Assembly: GCF_000739655.1 (NCBI RefSeq)
Contig: NZ_BATR01000168.1
Coordinates: forward strand, 1 to 64,000
DNA: 64,000 nt
From: Verrucomicrobium sp. BvORR106
GTDB lineage: Bacteria; Verrucomicrobiota; Verrucomicrobiia; Verrucomicrobiales; Verrucomicrobiaceae
Direction: 5' to 3'
Under the pieces are notes generated by a model. That model had not been told where the DNA came from and did no database searches. It saw only the letters and a program-made list of their open reading frames with translations. Every line of letters starts with the position of its first letter. Position 1 is the stretch's first letter. Shown in pieces: positions 6,014 through 21,366 of this stretch. Both the position numbers and the translations under genes were made by a program.

Positions 6014-6096
6014 GCAACTGGGAGTCGCACAGGCCCAATCCGTTCAATACACGCCTCCACCCAAGTAGCATACACAGCCGACGCCTGGCCTACCCG

Positions 6097-6130
6097 GCCC
6101 TGACTCCCGCAGTTGTGAGGAGTCAGGGCC
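6097..6130. terminator. 12-bp perfect inverted repeat between lon and the next gene
   Basis: GGCCCTGACTCC and GGAGTCAGGGCC flank an 11-base loop, 47 bases beyond the lon stop. There is no T-run on either side. It is probably an mRNA 3' end structure or a factor-dependent terminator. Confidence 0.45.
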
Positions 6131-6177
6131 GCACCGCCCAAAATGCGGCATCAGGCGCGTTCGCAAAATCAGCTCCC

Positions 6178-8613
<2,436 letters not shown>

Positions 8614-14700: not shown

Positions 14701-17697
14701 CTACTTGAACATCGGATCTTCCTTGTTCCCCTTGCTCAGCAGGTAAGCCAGCAGGTCGAGGATGTCGTTCTTATTCAGGGTGCTGAGCAGGCCCGGAGGC
14801 ATCATGGACACCTTGGACTGGTCCATGCTCTTGATCAGCTTGCGATCCACCCGCTGGAGCGCGTTGGGGTCCATCATGTTGATGTTCAGCGTGATGGTAT
14901 CGCCCGCCAGGTTCATGATGCGGCCGTACACCTTGCTGTCGTCATTGAGCGTGACTTCCAGCTGGCCGTACTGGTCGCTGATTTCCTTGCTCGGCTCGAT
15001 GATGTGCACGAGCAGATCCCGCGGGCTGTACTTGCCCGCCACGCTCGTGAGATCGGGCCCGATAGCGCCGCCTTCCTGACCGAAGCGATGGCAGGCGAAG
15101 CAAGTGGCCTGGCCGAACATGTTGCGGCCGTTGACGAAGTTACGTCCGCCTTCGAGACCAGCTCCGAGCAGGCCTTCGATGTCCTCCACCGTGTAGTTCT
15201 TCACGAAGGATTTGAGGGCGAAGGTGAACTGCGGGGCCTTCACATCCGGCTTGGCTTCAAGGATGGGCTTGAGCGCAACCTTCTCTGCATCCGTCAGTCC
15301 AGCCTCGGCATCCTTCCGGATGTCCTGCATGAAGAGGTCGAAGCTGGCACCACCCTTGTAGGTGGGGGCGCGCAGGCACACCCACTTGAAGTAGCGCTCA
15401 CGCAGTTCCGGCGTCCAGCCGTTCTTGGCAAAGCGCAGGCTCTGGGCCAGGGAGATCTGCTCCTCCTGGGTGGGGGCGTTTTCCAGAATCGGAATGGCCT
15501 TGGCCACGAAAGCGCTGTCACCGAGGAAGGTGAGCACATTCACGAGGTCCACATCCAGCCAGGGCTCACTGGTGGGGAAAACTGAGGAGAGCCGGGCGAT
15601 GGCCTTCGCACGCACACCATCCGCAGGCTCGCCGAAGCGGGCGAAGGCCAGCATGTGCACCCGCACATAAAGCTCGCGGTCGGCCCCTTTGAGGTCGGCG
15701 AACTTGATGCGGTCCAGCGCGTTCATGATTGGCTCATAGAGGGCCTGGTCCCCGTTCGAAGCGCGGCTCAGAGCCATAAGGGCCATGAGAGAAGCCCGCG
15801 GAGAGGTCTCGGCCAAGGCCTTGTCCTTCCAGGTGGCCAGAGGCTGGTGCTCCACCGCGATGCGGGCAGCAAAGCGGATGAGACGGTCGGCATGGCCCAG
15901 CTGCGGCCAGGCCGCCGCCAACGCCTGGGGGTCCTCCTTGCCGTGGAAGACTTCCAGACTGCGGCGCAGTTCGTGGAGTTGTTTCTCCTCACCCTCAAGC
16001 TTCAGCGGTGCCGCGGCCGTGCTTTCCTTGCCCGTGTAGGTCACGCGGTAGAGCCCGCTCTGCACGCGGCGTCCGCCAATCGTGATGTACAGCGCTCCGT
16101 CCTTGGGCGAAACGGCGAGATCGGTGAGCGGCAGCGGATTGGCACTCATAAACTCCTCGAACTCCGCCTTGTACCCGGCGCCTTGAGGCTTCAGGTGCAC
16201 GGCATAGAGTTTGCCGTAGCTCCAGTCAGCGGCAAAGAGCGCCTCCTGATATTTGGCCGGGAACTTGGCCCCATAACCGAAAGCCACGCCGGTGGGCGAA
16301 CCGGGACCGATGTCCGTCACGGGTGGGAGACTGTCCTCCCAGCGCACGGGCCACTTCTTGGAAAGGGAGCGCCAGCCGAACTCGCCGCCGCTCTGCGCCA
16401 TGCAGATACGAGTGGGCCGGTACCAGGGGACACTGAAGTCCCACTCCATGTCCGCGTCATAGGTGAAGAGATCCCCCTGGCGGTTGAAGGCGGCATCGTA
16501 CTCGTTGCGGAAACCGGTGGTGATCAGTTCCCAGGTCTTGCCATCGGGATCGGTCTTGGCCACCCAGCCACCTGGGGCCATGACATCACGCATGAAACCA
16601 CGCCCGATGAGGGGAGGCAGCAGCACGTCCTCCGCCCAGTGACGGGGCACCCGGCTGCTGTTCATCTCCGTGATGGGCGTCTGGTTGCCCACGATGCAAT
16701 AGAGGGACTTGCCATCCGGCCCCAGCACCACGGCATGCGGGCCGTGTTCGCCGCCTTTGTTCGGGAAAGCGCGGAGCTGCTCCACCTTGTCGAACTTGTC
16801 ATCCTTGTCCGTATCGCTGATCCGGTAGAGACCGCGGGGAAACTTGTCCGAGTTCGTGATCGCGTAGAGGTGGCCAAAGGCAAAGAGCAGCCCTTGAGCC
16901 TCGCCGATCTCGGCGGCGATTTCCTCGATCTTCGTGTCCTCGGGCTTGCCGCCCAGGGCCGGCGGGGTCACGCGGTAGAGCTTGCCATACTGGTCGCTCA
17001 CGATGAGGCGGCCTTTGTCATCAAAAGTGTTCGCCACCCAGGAGCCCTGAGTCTTCAGCGGCACGCTGTAGAGCAGTTCCGCCTTGAAGCCTTCCTTGAG
17101 CTTGATGTCCTTTACCGCGGTGGCCTCAGGCTCCTTCAGGTTGGCGGCTGCGGCCAGGCTCTTTTCATTAAGCTTGGCCCAGGGACCACCGCCCAGTGGA
17201 GCGAGCGCGACGGCGGGCTTCCAGTCTTTGTCGTCGAACTTGACCTGCTCCCAGCCGGCCGGTGCGGTCTCGCTGGCTTTCCAGGTCGCGTCGGTGACGA
17301 TCTCCGTCTGCCCCTTGTTGCGGGTCTCAATGATGAGCTTCACCAGCACGGCGCCCTTGTTGCCGCCACGGTTGGTTCCTGTCACCGCCAGCACGTTCTG
17401 ACCTTTGACCACGGCGTCACTGACCTCTTTCACCTGCACCTTGTCCCAGCCTTGGCCGGTCAGCACGGGTTTGCCATTGATCAGGACGGTCAACTCATCG
17501 TCACCGGTGGCCTGCAGGCGCACAGTGTCGCTCTGCTGAACGTTGAAAGTTTTGCGGAGGTACACCGTCTGGTCGGGCTTCGCCTCGGCGGCGGACCAGA
17601 TCCACTGGGGCGTCTCGGCCAGCGCCGTGAAAGCGGCGAGACTGAGCGCGGCCGTGGCGGCGAGGGGGATGGTAAGGCGTCGGTAAAGTGAAGGCAT
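14701..17697 (-). CDS. PVC-type large cytochrome c / sugar-dehydrogenase-like propeller protein
   Basis: A 998-residue exported protein with a signal peptide cut near LAE (residue 28). Then come a beta-sandwich domain resembling a carbohydrate-binding module (about 30-180), a beta-propeller of the soluble dehydrogenase/NHL kind (about 190-560), a helical HEAT-like region, and a C-terminal cytochrome c domain. The heme motif CFACH lies near residue 865, with a likely Met ligand in MMPPGLLSTL. This order is characteristic of the large PVC-specific heme-binding proteins of planctomycetes and verrucomicrobia. Such proteins are thought to oxidise sugars or alcohols in the periplasm; the substrate is unknown. 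A heptamer array follows its stop codon. Confidence 0.85.
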   Translation of the reverse strand: MPSLYRRLTIPLAATAALSLAAFTALAETPQWIWSAAEAKPDQTVYLRKTFNVQQSDTVRLQATGDDELTVLINGKPVLTGQGWDKVQVKEVSDAVVKGQNVLAVTGTNRGGNKGAVLVKLIIETRNKGQTEIVTDATWKASETAPAGWEQVKFDDKDWKPAVALAPLGGGPWAKLNEKSLAAAANLKEPEATAVKDIKLKEGFKAELLYSVPLKTQGSWVANTFDDKGRLIVSDQYGKLYRVTPPALGGKPEDTKIEEIAAEIGEAQGLLFAFGHLYAITNSDKFPRGLYRISDTDKDDKFDKVEQLRAFPNKGGEHGPHAVVLGPDGKSLYCIVGNQTPITEMNSSRVPRHWAEDVLLPPLIGRGFMRDVMAPGGWVAKTDPDGKTWELITTGFRNEYDAAFNRQGDLFTYDADMEWDFSVPWYRPTRICMAQSGGEFGWRSLSKKWPVRWEDSLPPVTDIGPGSPTGVAFGYGAKFPAKYQEALFAADWSYGKLYAVHLKPQGAGYKAEFEEFMSANPLPLTDLAVSPKDGALYITIGGRRVQSGLYRVTYTGKESTAAAPLKLEGEEKQLHELRRSLEVFHGKEDPQALAAAWPQLGHADRLIRFAARIAVEHQPLATWKDKALAETSPRASLMALMALSRASNGDQALYEPIMNALDRIKFADLKGADRELYVRVHMLAFARFGEPADGVRAKAIARLSSVFPTSEPWLDVDLVNVLTFLGDSAFVAKAIPILENAPTQEEQISLAQSLRFAKNGWTPELRERYFKWVCLRAPTYKGGASFDLFMQDIRKDAEAGLTDAEKVALKPILEAKPDVKAPQFTFALKSFVKNYTVEDIEGLLGAGLEGGRNFVNGRNMFGQATCFACHRFGQEGGAIGPDLTSVAGKYSPRDLLVHIIEPSKEISDQYGQLEVTLNDDSKVYGRIMNLAGDTITLNINMMDPNALQRVDRKLIKSMDQSKVSMMPPGLLSTLNKNDILDLLAYLLSKGNKEDPMFK

Positions 17698-17905: not shown

Positions 17906-18685
17906 ATGCACTCGCACCCTCCTCCGCACCGGAATTCCCACGGCCCTACGGGGGTCTGCCAGGCGACCCAGAAGACCTTACCGCACTCGGAATTGGTCCC
18001 CCTGGATGCCCTCCGGCCTACCATCGCGAGGCGAATCTCCACCCAGTATCCGGACTTGAAGCCTGGCTCATTCGTCTCTCATGAGGTGCTGAATGCGGCC
18101 CGGCTCGACTACGTGCGTGATGCCCTGAAGGATCAGTTGGGAGAGCTAACCCACTTGGATGAGGAGGTGGTGGACAGCCTGCACAAACACGAAGTGCTGA
18201 GCGCCCGCCCCCTGGACGAGACCGAGGAGAAAGAGTCCAGCTTCGGCGCCCGTCTGGCCGACCGCATTGCCAGCTTCGGCGGGAGCTGGACGTTCATCCT
18301 CACGTTTGGTGGATTCCTCATCCTCTGGATCACAGTGAATGCGTGGTTCCTGGCGACGCGGGCGTTCGATCCCTATCCCTTCATCTTGCTGAACCTCATC
18401 CTCTCCTGCCTCGCCGCCATGCAGGCGCCAGTCATCATGATGAGCCAGAACCGGCAGGAGACCCGGGACAGACGACGGGCGGAGAATGACTACAAGATCA
18501 ACCTAAAGTCCGAGCTCGAGATCCGTCACCTGCACGAGAAGGTGGATTACCTCCTGCACCAGCAAGCCACACGCTTGCTCGAGATCCAGGAGATCCAGCT
18601 CGACCTGATGCGTGAACTTGCCCAAGGGAAAAGTGAGGGGGGAGCGCGGACACCCCGAAAAGGTGAGGATACGAATCACGTTTAG
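17906..18685 (+). CDS. DUF1003 membrane protein
   Basis: 259 residues. The family core begins near GARLADRIASFGGSW, followed by two adjacent membrane helices (about 125-145 and 153-173) and the hallmark APVIMMSQNRQ. A long charged helix (RRAENDYKINLKSELEIRHL) then predicts a C-terminal coiled coil. The function of DUF1003 proteins is unknown. The ATG at 17906 is kept, but the first 40 residues are proline-rich and poorly conserved-looking, so a later start is possible. Confidence 0.85.
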   Translation: MHSHPPPHRNSHGPTGVCQATQKTLPHSELVPLDALRPTIARRISTQYPDLKPGSFVSHEVLNAARLDYVRDALKDQLGELTHLDEEVVDSLHKHEVLSARPLDETEEKESSFGARLADRIASFGGSWTFILTFGGFLILWITVNAWFLATRAFDPYPFILLNLILSCLAAMQAPVIMMSQNRQETRDRRRAENDYKINLKSELEIRHLHEKVDYLLHQQATRLLEIQEIQLDLMRELAQGKSEGGARTPRKGEDTNHV

Positions 18686-18798: not shown

Positions 18799-21366
18799 AT
18801 GATGCCCTCCGTGCTTCGCCGGCTGCTGCCGGTCCTTCTGCCATACCTTTATCTCACCTGCCTGGCTCTCCCCGTCCCCGCTCAGGACGAACCCGTCGCG
18901 GAGGATGACGTCCCCATTCCCCGGGCCGAGATCAAACTGGCCCACGCCACGGCCTCAGCCCGCCTGTATGAGCCGGACGAGCGCCCTCCCGTGGCCGTCA
19001 TGGTCTTTGGGTCCGGGGATGGCGGCTGGTCTGCATGGGAGGATGCCGTAAGCCATTGGCTGCGAGATGCCGGGATCTACGTGATCGGGCTGGATCTGCG
19101 TGAGTATGCCGCCAAGGACTACACGGCAGAACTCCTGGGCAAAGACATGGCCACGCTCGCCGCGGAAGCTGCGACCCGCGGCGGCGGAGATGCCAGCACC
19201 CCGGTGATCTACGCCGGCTGGAGCATGGGGGCGGTGCAGGCGGTCCCTGCTGCCGCCTGGAAGGAACGCCCTGCCGGACTGAAGGGCCTCATCATGCTCA
19301 GTGCCGACAGTCGCGGACGCTTTGGTCTGAGAGCTTCAGATGAACTCGGCGTCACCCCCACCGGGCCGGGCACCTTTAATCTGGCTGACTTCACCGCGGG
19401 CATGGCGGGACTGCGGGTCGCGCAGTTCCACGGTGGGGCCGATTTCATGGCGTCCACCGCCTGGATTCAGGGGCTGAAGACACCGCATGAACTCTATGTG
19501 ATCAGCGGTGCCAATCACGGATTCGACGGGCCGGCCGACGAGTTTGCCGAGGATCTCCTGCGCGGTGTGCATTGGGTGCTGGGAGATGACAGCGCGGCCG
19601 CCCCCCCACCGGAAGATGAGCTCCCCTTTGGCCTTTCCCCTCTCTGGCCTGGGGCGGCGTTGGCCATTGGTCTCTCCATATTCTTCCTCGTCTCGAAGAA
19701 GCACTCTATCTCAGTCCTGGTCTGGGCGGTCACGCTCATGGGGCTGGTGGACCTGCTGGAAGCCCTCTTCCAAAAACCGCCCGCGGTGCTGGCTTGGATG
19801 GAACAATGGGTGCCGCTGGGGGTGACGGAGAAGAGCCGCTTGCTGCTGCTCCTCTCTGGTCTGGCGCTCCTGTCCCTCGCCCGCGGTCTACGTCGCCGGA
19901 AGCATCTGGCCTGGCTGCTCGTGCTGGCGCTGTTGAGTGTGTCCGTTGTGTTGCATCTGTCGCGGGCGTTCGACTGGCACCACGCCCTGGCGGCGGCCAT
20001 TCTGCTCATCCCTCTGGTCAGATGGCGTCAGGACTTTGTGGCGCGATCTGATGCCCCCTCGGTGCGTATCGCCGGGCTTGTCGCCTTCTCCCTGGCGCTG
20101 GGCCTCACGATCTACGGCACCATCGGCATCCGGCAGTACAGCGAGTCCGGCAAGGTCGGAGCAGCGCTCTCCTGGGCAGACTGCCTGCATGGGGCCGGGG
20201 CGGCCGTGTTCATGCAGAAATCCGAGCTGGATCATGACGGGGGCCGTGAGGTGCGAGGCTTCCTGGCCACCCTGCGGACAGGCAGCCTGCTGAGCTCCAT
20301 GCTGGTGCTGGCCCTGCTGTTGCGACCGGTGCTGGCGAAACGCCACCCCGAAGCCACGGGGGACGAACGTGAGCGCATGGCGAAGATCATCGCGGAACAC
20401 GGGCAGGACCCGATGGACAACTTCGCCCTCCTGCCGGACAAGCGCTGCTTCTTCACCCGGGACGGCAAGGGGCTGGTGGCCTATGCACTATGGCGAAAAT
20501 ATGCCGTGGCCCTGGCCGACCCCATCTGTGCACCGGAAAACCGCGCCTCAGCGGTGGCAGAGTTCCGCGCCTTCTGCCGCAACCAGGACTGGCAGCCGAT
20601 CTTCTACTGTGTCCACGTCTCGAACCGGCCCCTCTATGAGGAGGAGAACTTCGTCACTTTCAAGGTGGGTGAGGATGCACGGCTGGATGTGGCAGAGTTC
20701 AAGCTGGAGGGAGGTAAGTTCCAAAACCTGCGCACGGCGCGGAACAAGGCGCGCAAAGGCGGCCTCACGTTCCAGTGGTATGACGGCAGCCCGCAGATCG
20801 ATCATGGCCTCGAAGCCCAGCTCACGCTGATCTCCCAGGAGTGGCTGGCCCACAAACATGGTGGCGAGATGACCTTCGACCTGGGTGCCTTCAGCATCGA
20901 GAGCATTCGCAAACATGGCGTGGCCATCGTGCGAAATCCCGAGGGCCGGATCGAAACTTTTGCCACGTGGCTCCCCTACAATCAGGGCAACGGACGCTGC
21001 CTGGACCTCATGCGCGGCCGTGCCGAGGCCCGGGACGTGCTGGACTTCCTCATTGTGGAAGCCATCGACCACTTCAAGGCCCAGGGAGTGCAGGAAGTCA
21101 GCCTCGGGAACGCGCCGCTCGCGAACATCAACGCTGGCGACGGGCAGGCTCTGGAGTGCCGGAAAGAACGCGCGGTGCAGTTTCTCTTCGACAACTTCGA
21201 CAAGTTCTACGGGTACAAGAGCCTCTTCAACTTCAAGAAGAAGTACCAGCCCGAGTGGCAGGGCCGCTACCTCGCCTACCCTCCTGGCGTGGGCCTGGCC
21301 ATGGCGGGCCTGGCCATCGCAGGGGTGCATTTGCCGAAAGGCTTCGTGGGGCTCGTCAGGTCCTAG
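18799..21366 (+). CDS. VirJ/AcvB-like hydrolase fused to MprF-type lipid aminoacyltransferase
   Basis: 855 residues in three parts. A signal peptide (1-28) leads into an alpha/beta-hydrolase domain (about 40-265) with the VirJ/AcvB-family GSGDGGW turn, the nucleophile elbow GWSMG (Ser142), Asp215 and His240 (GANHGF). About seven membrane helices follow between 278 and 513. The last 335 residues are a DUF2156 domain as in the catalytic half of MprF, which transfers amino acids from aminoacyl-tRNA to phosphatidylglycerol. In Agrobacterium AcvB is a periplasmic lysyl-PG hydrolase encoded beside the synthase LpiA; here both activities seem to lie on one chain. An odd helix count places the hydrolase outside and the transferase inside, as required. 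The amino acid used is not predictable. Confidence 0.85.
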   Translation: MMPSVLRRLLPVLLPYLYLTCLALPVPAQDEPVAEDDVPIPRAEIKLAHATASARLYEPDERPPVAVMVFGSGDGGWSAWEDAVSHWLRDAGIYVIGLDLREYAAKDYTAELLGKDMATLAAEAATRGGGDASTPVIYAGWSMGAVQAVPAAAWKERPAGLKGLIMLSADSRGRFGLRASDELGVTPTGPGTFNLADFTAGMAGLRVAQFHGGADFMASTAWIQGLKTPHELYVISGANHGFDGPADEFAEDLLRGVHWVLGDDSAAAPPPEDELPFGLSPLWPGAALAIGLSIFFLVSKKHSISVLVWAVTLMGLVDLLEALFQKPPAVLAWMEQWVPLGVTEKSRLLLLLSGLALLSLARGLRRRKHLAWLLVLALLSVSVVLHLSRAFDWHHALAAAILLIPLVRWRQDFVARSDAPSVRIAGLVAFSLALGLTIYGTIGIRQYSESGKVGAALSWADCLHGAGAAVFMQKSELDHDGGREVRGFLATLRTGSLLSSMLVLALLLRPVLAKRHPEATGDERERMAKIIAEHGQDPMDNFALLPDKRCFFTRDGKGLVAYALWRKYAVALADPICAPENRASAVAEFRAFCRNQDWQPIFYCVHVSNRPLYEEENFVTFKVGEDARLDVAEFKLEGGKFQNLRTARNKARKGGLTFQWYDGSPQIDHGLEAQLTLISQEWLAHKHGGEMTFDLGAFSIESIRKHGVAIVRNPEGRIETFATWLPYNQGNGRCLDLMRGRAEARDVLDFLIVEAIDHFKAQGVQEVSLGNAPLANINAGDGQALECRKERAVQFLFDNFDKFYGYKSLFNFKKKYQPEWQGRYLAYPPGVGLAMAGLAIAGVHLPKGFVGLVRS

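Follow-up and report, generated by a model that had tools for sequence, protein, structure and literature searches.

A VirJ/AcvB-type hydrolase and a flippase-less MprF-type synthase in one chain: a candidate single-chain aminoacyl-lipid synthase-hydrolase of Verrucomicrobiota

The window analysed here is a stretch of 64,000 nucleotides from Verrucomicrobium sp. BvORR106 (contig NZ_BATR01000168.1, positions 1 to 64,000), and the gene in question occupies 18799-21366 on its forward strand (+), as do all features of the protein given below, as a single ATG-started open reading frame of 855 aa. It encodes, in this order, a signal peptide, a VirJ/AcvB-type alpha/beta-hydrolase (PF06057), a link helix, six membrane helices corresponding to MprF Subdomain 2 and an MprF-type, GNAT-type synthase (PF09924, which we take to be the family formerly named DUF2156). 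Pfam places VirJ on residues 67-187 (39.4 bits against a cut-off of 22, E 7.5e-10) and LPG_synthase_C on residues 529-827 (243.8 bits, E 2.8e-72, profile positions 2-298 of 298 covered), while hydropathy gives seven helices downstream of the hydrolase. An initial annotation of this DNA had read the same two domains in the same order, joined through about seven membrane helices, and in this it was right. Both Pfam domains lie in one frame in all 19 intact fused proteins scanned, PF06057 reaching E <= 0.001 in 19/19, a count which omits one copy ending at a contig end (G217) and one with a frame change (G515, locus L006). By sequence, the nearest PDB entries are AcvB 9xhm for the hydrolase part and the MprF-type structures 9w50/9goe for residues 307-854.

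Residues 1-29 (18799-18885) look like a cleavable Sec signal peptide by hydropathy and alignment, with a positive start, a hydrophobic core and a cleavage site placed by eye between VPA and QD (between AFA and QD in the same-genus copy L007). The putatively periplasmic hydrolase domain covers residues 40-265 (18916-19593), where the initial annotation had expected a VirJ/AcvB match, and is delimited by PF06057, the AcvB match and an AlphaFold model of this part alone (pLDDT, the predicted local distance difference test, 76; pTM, the predicted template modelling score, 0.82) showing the general alpha/beta-hydrolase fold. Foldseek with this model gave mostly esterases and lipases among the 50 matches listed; domain 1 of Brucella VirJ ranks 37-38, and AcvB is absent among the matches listed. 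The GSGDGGW motif at residues 71-77 (19009-19029) contains Ser72 and Asp74, aligned with AcvB Ser269 and Asp271, and it is followed by the catalytic Ser142 (19222-19224; AcvB Ser336 by alignment), by Asp215 (19441-19443), probably the third member of the catalytic triad, and by the catalytic His240 (19516-19518), which aligns with the His of separate VirJ proteins and is equated with AcvB His433 through them, His433 lying outside the alignable AcvB stretch. The motif and the triad residues thus stand where they had been annotated. Ser72, Asp74, Ser142, Asp215 and His240 are invariant in 21/21 fused proteins of our residue table, which includes the intact hydrolase parts of G217 and G515 and omits the frameshifted hydrolase of G268. 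In AcvB, Ser269, Ser336 and His433 are given as catalytic residues (PMC13135905), and Ser336 and His433 are thought catalytic in a second study (PMC13197417).

The extra link helix spans residues 281-299 (19639-19695) and the six helices of MprF Subdomain 2 (transmembrane helices TM9-14) residues 304-509 (19708-20325), followed by the predicted cytoplasmic aminoacyl-tRNA:lipid transferase domain at residues 529-827 (20383-21279), assigned by PF09924 and by a match to 4v34. Its LDLMR motif (residues 735-739, 21001-21015) is also present in 4v34, and Leu735, Asp736, Met738 and Arg739 are invariant across 19 fused proteins. Loops 1, 3 and 7 have the highest density of Lys and Arg in 11/11 complete fused sequences examined, which fits an N-out/C-in topology, the helix limits being carried over from the window protein and separation being less than clean at the short loop 4 and at loop 5. 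The hydrolase half should therefore be outside and the synthase half inside, as far as loop charges can tell.

The initial annotation had passed over a further feature, namely that the flippase half of MprF appears to be missing. Against the NCBIfam profile bifunc_MprF (NF033480), residues 298-841 align to positions 317-836 of 841 and positions 1-316 are unmatched, the score of 368.5 bits staying under the 600-bit cut-off. In the MprF of Rhizobium tropici, the flippase core is Subdomain 1 (24-325), and TM9-14 belong to Subdomain 2 (334-530) (PMC8131360). Since the profile match begins at 317, these subdomain limits indicate a protein without the flippase half, and the hydrolase with its one link helix would occupy the place of Subdomain 1 (TM1-8). 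A blastp query with the flippase half matched 7/7 separate MprFs and 0/11 fused loci. The flippase family PF03706 was found in 0/19 intact fused proteins by Pfam, a weak test that matches just 6/14 synthases, 10 of these 14 being full-length, and so the claim is carried by the blastp comparison and the profile coordinates. No helix was found at the link position in four split synthases (described below) read from their ATGA start, the value for one of them (L112) being based on one residue.

The window genome has exactly one PF09924 match, the fused protein itself, and no PF03706 match, in a search whose control was positive in 11/14 known genomes. Ten of the 20 fused genomes searched are likewise without any PF03706 match, two of these ten (G521 and G515) being less than 90% complete. 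Among the same 20 genomes, a second PF09924 match in a frame of MprF size (875 aa) occurs only in G003; the other second matches lie in frames of 380-390 aa or in a 172-aa piece (G504). G003 (L074, L085), which stands outside the class of the window genome, has a full-length MprF as a protein of its own in addition to the fused one.

How, then, would the product reach a hydrolase outside? Neutral lipids flip fast. If the acceptor were diacylglycerol (DAG) or another neutral lipid rather than phosphatidylglycerol (PG), the flippase half would be dispensable and the outside hydrolase would still meet its substrate, because an aminoacyl-DAG can cross the bilayer unaided. This variant is compatible with the single-chain synthase-hydrolase for which we argue below, and we consider it possible but tentative. 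It agrees with the ten genomes free of PF03706 and with the flippase half not being seen in any of the fused and split short proteins examined, and it has a precedent in LysX and AlaDAGS, MprF relatives with six predicted helices, which are active lipid aminoacyl transferases and aminoacylate DAG (PMC10580965). However, the synthase scores 368 bits against the MprF profile and 141 bits against LysX, its best solved relatives are PG enzymes, and an aminoacyl-DAG would be positively charged and may flip slowly.

The fused gene was found in 21 Verrucomicrobiota genomes, 20 of them from scans (18 among the 239 of the order) and one as locus L005; its hosts are soil and water bacteria. A hydrolase-domain profile was run on two overlapping sets, one of 387 genomes from the phylum, where 24 gave hits, and one of 239 from the order, where 38 did, with part of the first-look candidates scored (7 or 11 per genome in the larger scans). 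Gene-by-gene reading left aside six weak hits of the phylum scan (E 3e-5 to 1e-3) and ten genomes of the order scan whose hits were all weak (E 3e-13 to 8e-4), and G507 is cut by a contig end. Two fused genes lie outside the class of the window genome, in the f17 genomes G003 and G029. A scan of genome contigs with exact 8-residue words returned 6 loci, all Verrucomicrobia or its members, and no match covering 80% of the fused protein was present among 72,556 plasmid records. Two of the fused copies are damaged, G217 by a contig end and G515 by a frame change; the latter (L006, around 6087-6301), near the C-terminus of the gene, lies in a draft genome, where a sequencing error is possible. An assembly or annotation artefact as the source of the fusion was considered and rejected, since fused frames occur in five single-contig genomes (G251, G254, G418, G423 and G549) and selection is continuous through the junction.

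The same two enzyme parts occur in other layouts as well. Of 16 genomes with strong matches in the phylum scan (E <= 1e-37), 9 have the fused gene (with G217 broken by its contig end), 4 a split one, 2 a hydrolase beside a longer MprF (G243 and the damaged G268) and 1 a hydrolase alone without the catalytic Ser. In G085, G088, G292 and G369 a synthase gene without the flippase half comes after the hydrolase gene, and the two share the 4 bases ATGA in 4/4. A separate hydrolase adjoins a full MprF with its flippase half at nine intact loci (G388, G408, G579, G488, G406, G502, G387, G243 and G186), G243 falling under the Pfam cut-off for PF03706 and the G186 hydrolase being of the canonical VirJ type; two further loci of this layout are damaged (G268 and G126). 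In the stretches covered, the hydrolase stands alone in G078 and in one of its two copies in G406.

In the hydrolase tree, built without the stand-alone L078 and without the AcvB piece, all fused hydrolases group in a single clade (98/100, 21 rows) and one layout change is needed. In the synthase tree the synthases without a flippase half, whether fused or split, group together (100/100, 24 rows) and are set off from ten full MprFs; here the best topology requires two changes, but a single fused clade within the group is not rejected (p-AU, the p-value of the approximately unbiased test, 0.215). One fusion event is therefore the simplest reading. The ratio of nonsynonymous to synonymous substitution rates (dN/dS) against the same-genus G418 is 0.032 for the hydrolase, 0.015 for the linker, 0.033 for the membrane part and 0.039 for the synthase, and against G423 it is 0.142, 0.056, 0.174 and 0.175, respectively; these values are rough, dS being near saturation (0.7 to 1.7 against G418) and exceeding 1 in several of the parts. 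Purifying selection acts on the window gene all the way from the hydrolase through the linker to the synthase, and the hydrolase does not give the impression of a relic. That the hydrolase domain is spent or regulatory, anchoring or sensing only while the protein just makes aminoacyl lipid, appears quite improbable to us on these grounds, with its dN/dS as low as that of the synthase and its five active-site residues kept in 21/21, even though the acid four residues after the catalytic Ser is gone in 21/21 fused proteins and a relative without catalytic residues exists (G078).

The positions around that acid bear on the substrate. A docking model of AcvB places Asp271 and Asp340 close to the alpha-amino group and Asp370 close to the side chain of the lysine; lysyl-phosphatidylglycerol (Lys-PG) builds up strongly in the D271A mutant and moderately in D340A and D370A. 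Asp271 and Asp340 are conserved in the homologues compared in that study, and Asp370, proposed as the lysine-specific position, is replaced by Thr or Ser in Brucella abortus VirJ and in homologues of Pseudomonas that make alanyl-phosphatidylglycerol (Ala-PG) (PMC13197417). In the window protein the Asp340 place (Ser+4) is Val146 (19234-19236) by ungapped placement; phmmer puts gaps nearby and would pair Asp340 with Gln147, likewise non-acidic. Across the 21 fused proteins the residue there is V in 17, A in 2, T in 1 and G in 1, non-acidic throughout, whereas it is E or D in 14/14 unfused relatives adjoining a synthase (4 split, 8 beside a full MprF and 2 canonical), and A in one stand-alone copy and Q in the other. 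Because the fusion was probably one event, the loss of this acid should be counted as one correlated change and not as 21 independent cases. The place of Asp370, the reader of the lysine side chain, is taken by Arg174 (19318-19320) in 21/21 fused proteins, and Arg is also found in 12/12 unfused clade members beside a synthase and in both stand-alone copies, the canonical pair having D and E. The place of AcvB Trp378, in the membrane loop, is E in 15, L in 4 and K in 2 of the 21; tethering was considered as the cause of the loss of this Trp and found unsupported, since Trp378 is missing in the 12 unfused clade members too. Two stand-alone copies deserve mention in their own right. In the one from G078 (L078, 5589-7574 (-)) the catalytic Ser, Asp and His are replaced by G, G and K, so that it looks like a dead enzyme, and the second hydrolase copy in G406 (L132, 3808-4767 (+)) has Glu where Asp74 would be and Gln in the Ser+4 position, with no synthase match in the 8.7 kb covered there.

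These residues disfavour the meaning first proposed for the protein, a lysyl-PG synthase and a lysyl-PG hydrolase in one chain forming a membrane-charge switch. The precedent is sound, for LpiA and AcvB, to which the initial annotation had pointed, make and cleave Lys-PG as two proteins from one operon of Agrobacterium (PMC13197417), and family and catalytic residues are consistent with it. The lysine assignment is nevertheless weakened: the Asp370 and Asp340 places are Arg174 and Val146 in the window protein and Arg and Val/Ala/Thr/Gly in 21/21, and the top match of the synthase is an alanyl enzyme. The switch is in further doubt because its product must reach the outer leaflet, yet the flippase half is missing and the window genome is without a PF03706 match. 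We regard this proposal as improbable. The amino acid is probably not lysine and most likely of the alanine type. The best solved relative of the synthase by score is the Ala-PG synthase 4v34, presumably from Pseudomonas aeruginosa, scoring 158 bits where the Lys-PG synthase reaches 140, a gap that argues weakly against lysine.

Taken together, we favour, with a probability of about 0.58, a single-chain aminoacyl-lipid synthase-hydrolase whose hydrolase is detuned or re-aimed and whose lipid is likely non-lysyl. The cytoplasmic domain would transfer an amino acid from aminoacyl-tRNA to a membrane lipid, PG or possibly DAG; the six MprF-type helices would keep the synthase at the membrane; the extra helix would take the chain across to the periplasmic alpha/beta-hydrolase, and this would cleave the ester again through Ser142, His240 and Asp215. 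With a hydrolase in the place of the flippase half, the protein would be made for limiting its own product or turning it over, with little of it put on display. Loss of the Ser+4 acid fits a detuned hydrolase, as the enzyme would be tethered beside its own supplier. In Agrobacterium, AcvB binds LpiA and cleaves the LpiA product in the periplasm, the two being encoded together, and LpiA raises the membrane association of AcvB even when catalytically dead (PMC13197417); a fusion makes sense in that it would fix a contact which already exists.

Several points weigh against this proposal. In the absence of a flippase, an outer hydrolase and an inner synthase would stay apart for good unless the lipid has some other way across, by another scramblase, by the six-helix part itself or with an acceptor such as DAG, which may cross unaided. 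The hydrolase half is distant from AcvB (it scores 39 bits with PF06057 and shares 24% identity with the canonical VirJ from G186), so that carrying the AcvB substrate over to it amounts to a guess. Val146 could mean weak activity or a different substrate, and the role of Arg174 could be to hold the lipid instead of recognising the amino acid. Unfused members beside full MprFs share both Arg174 and the lack of Trp378, so neither is linked to the fusion, and the preference for alanine stems from scores and one position. Moreover, the full-length AlphaFold model reached a pLDDT of 47.8 (seven rows) and was not used for domain placement.

Alpha/beta-hydrolases can be acyltransferases. Perhaps, then, the lipid ferries the amino acid, and the hydrolase domain passes it to a periplasmic acceptor, such as a glycan, or frees it, the whole being a tRNA-powered aminoacyl exporter. 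Charging inside and discharging outside are paired one-to-one and removal of the product is built in, as such an exporter would need; nonetheless, no acceptor gene constantly adjoins the fusion in the loci compared and the characterised relatives, in the papers at hand, are hydrolases, which makes the idea very doubtful. Rather unlikely, too, is a flippase-free cycle in which a non-lysine aminoacyl carrier is loaded from tRNA inside, crosses by itself or through the six helices and is unloaded by the outer domain to water or to an envelope acceptor. Its amino acid might be acidic, since Arg174 is at the side-chain position, and if true the protein would be a machine for amino-acid export or envelope modification and not a charge switch.

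Returning to the synthase-hydrolase that we favour, its interest lies in its layout. No earlier report of a VirJ/MprF-type fusion was found in the open literature searched, a scope outside of which the main subscription literature lies, and the fusion is unmentioned in the accessible parts of PMC13197417, PMC13135905, PMC8131360, PMC11980842 and PMC10580965. Within that literature, aminoacyl-lipid synthases and hydrolases are described as separate proteins; synthase and hydrolase are a known pair and their fusion in a single chain a new layout. It is not obvious why bacteria should make a lipid and at once destroy it. Here both enzymes are fixed in one chain, one copy each and without a flippase half, which makes several questions testable with one gene: does the hydrolase act as a limiter of the lipid, can aminoacyl lipids get across in the absence of the MprF flippase half, and what residue determines the rate or substrate of the hydrolase? 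The separate, overlapping and fused layouts within one phylum form a natural series for such questions.

As for the neighbourhood, a gene for a DUF1003 membrane protein (17906-18685 (+)), outside the enzyme, stops 113 bases before the fused gene, and relatives of it are directly upstream in G190 (L071) and G187 (L075). Further upstream, 14701-17697 (-) encodes a 998-aa protein that matches cytochrome c and, weakly, PA14, and a relative of this protein is near the fusion in a same-genus genome (L069). A conserved operon was considered and rejected, neighbours being common just to the close pairs L071/L075, L072/L074, L077/L079, L002/L006 and window/G217, with the exception of the DUF1003 gene upstream in the window, L071 and L075.

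Among known systems, the closest likeness is to LpiA (MprF) and AcvB of Agrobacterium, with a synthase inside, a VirJ/AcvB-family serine hydrolase outside, both encoded together, and AcvB binding LpiA (PMC13197417). There, however, two proteins are involved and LpiA is synthase plus flippase, and AcvB, unlike the fused protein, has an extra N-terminal domain, the Trp membrane loop and the lysine-reading acids.

In P. aeruginosa, MprF is paired with the Ala-PG hydrolase PA0919. These are separate proteins with the flippase half present, in contrast to the fused one. The two activities proposed for the fused protein are the same and the Asp370 place is likewise non-acidic, but in PA0919 the counterpart of Asp340 is retained and position 370 is Thr or Ser, where the fused protein has Arg (PMC13197417).

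LysX and AlaDAGS of Corynebacterium and Mycobacterium resemble the fused protein as MprF relatives with six predicted helices, and LysX is also a fusion, with lysyl-tRNA synthetase (LysRS), that is, with the charging enzyme rather than a hydrolase; a VirJ-type domain is undescribed for it in the available part of the source (PMC10580965). The LysX profile gives 141 of 742 bits to the fused protein, over positions 20-563 of 1102 only, and no C-terminal LysRS domain is present, the chain ending after the synthase. Finally, the bifunctional MprF of Staphylococcus aureus and R. tropici shares Subdomain 2 and the synthase domain with it, but where MprF has Subdomain 1, the flippase core, the fused protein has a putative periplasmic hydrolase and a link helix.

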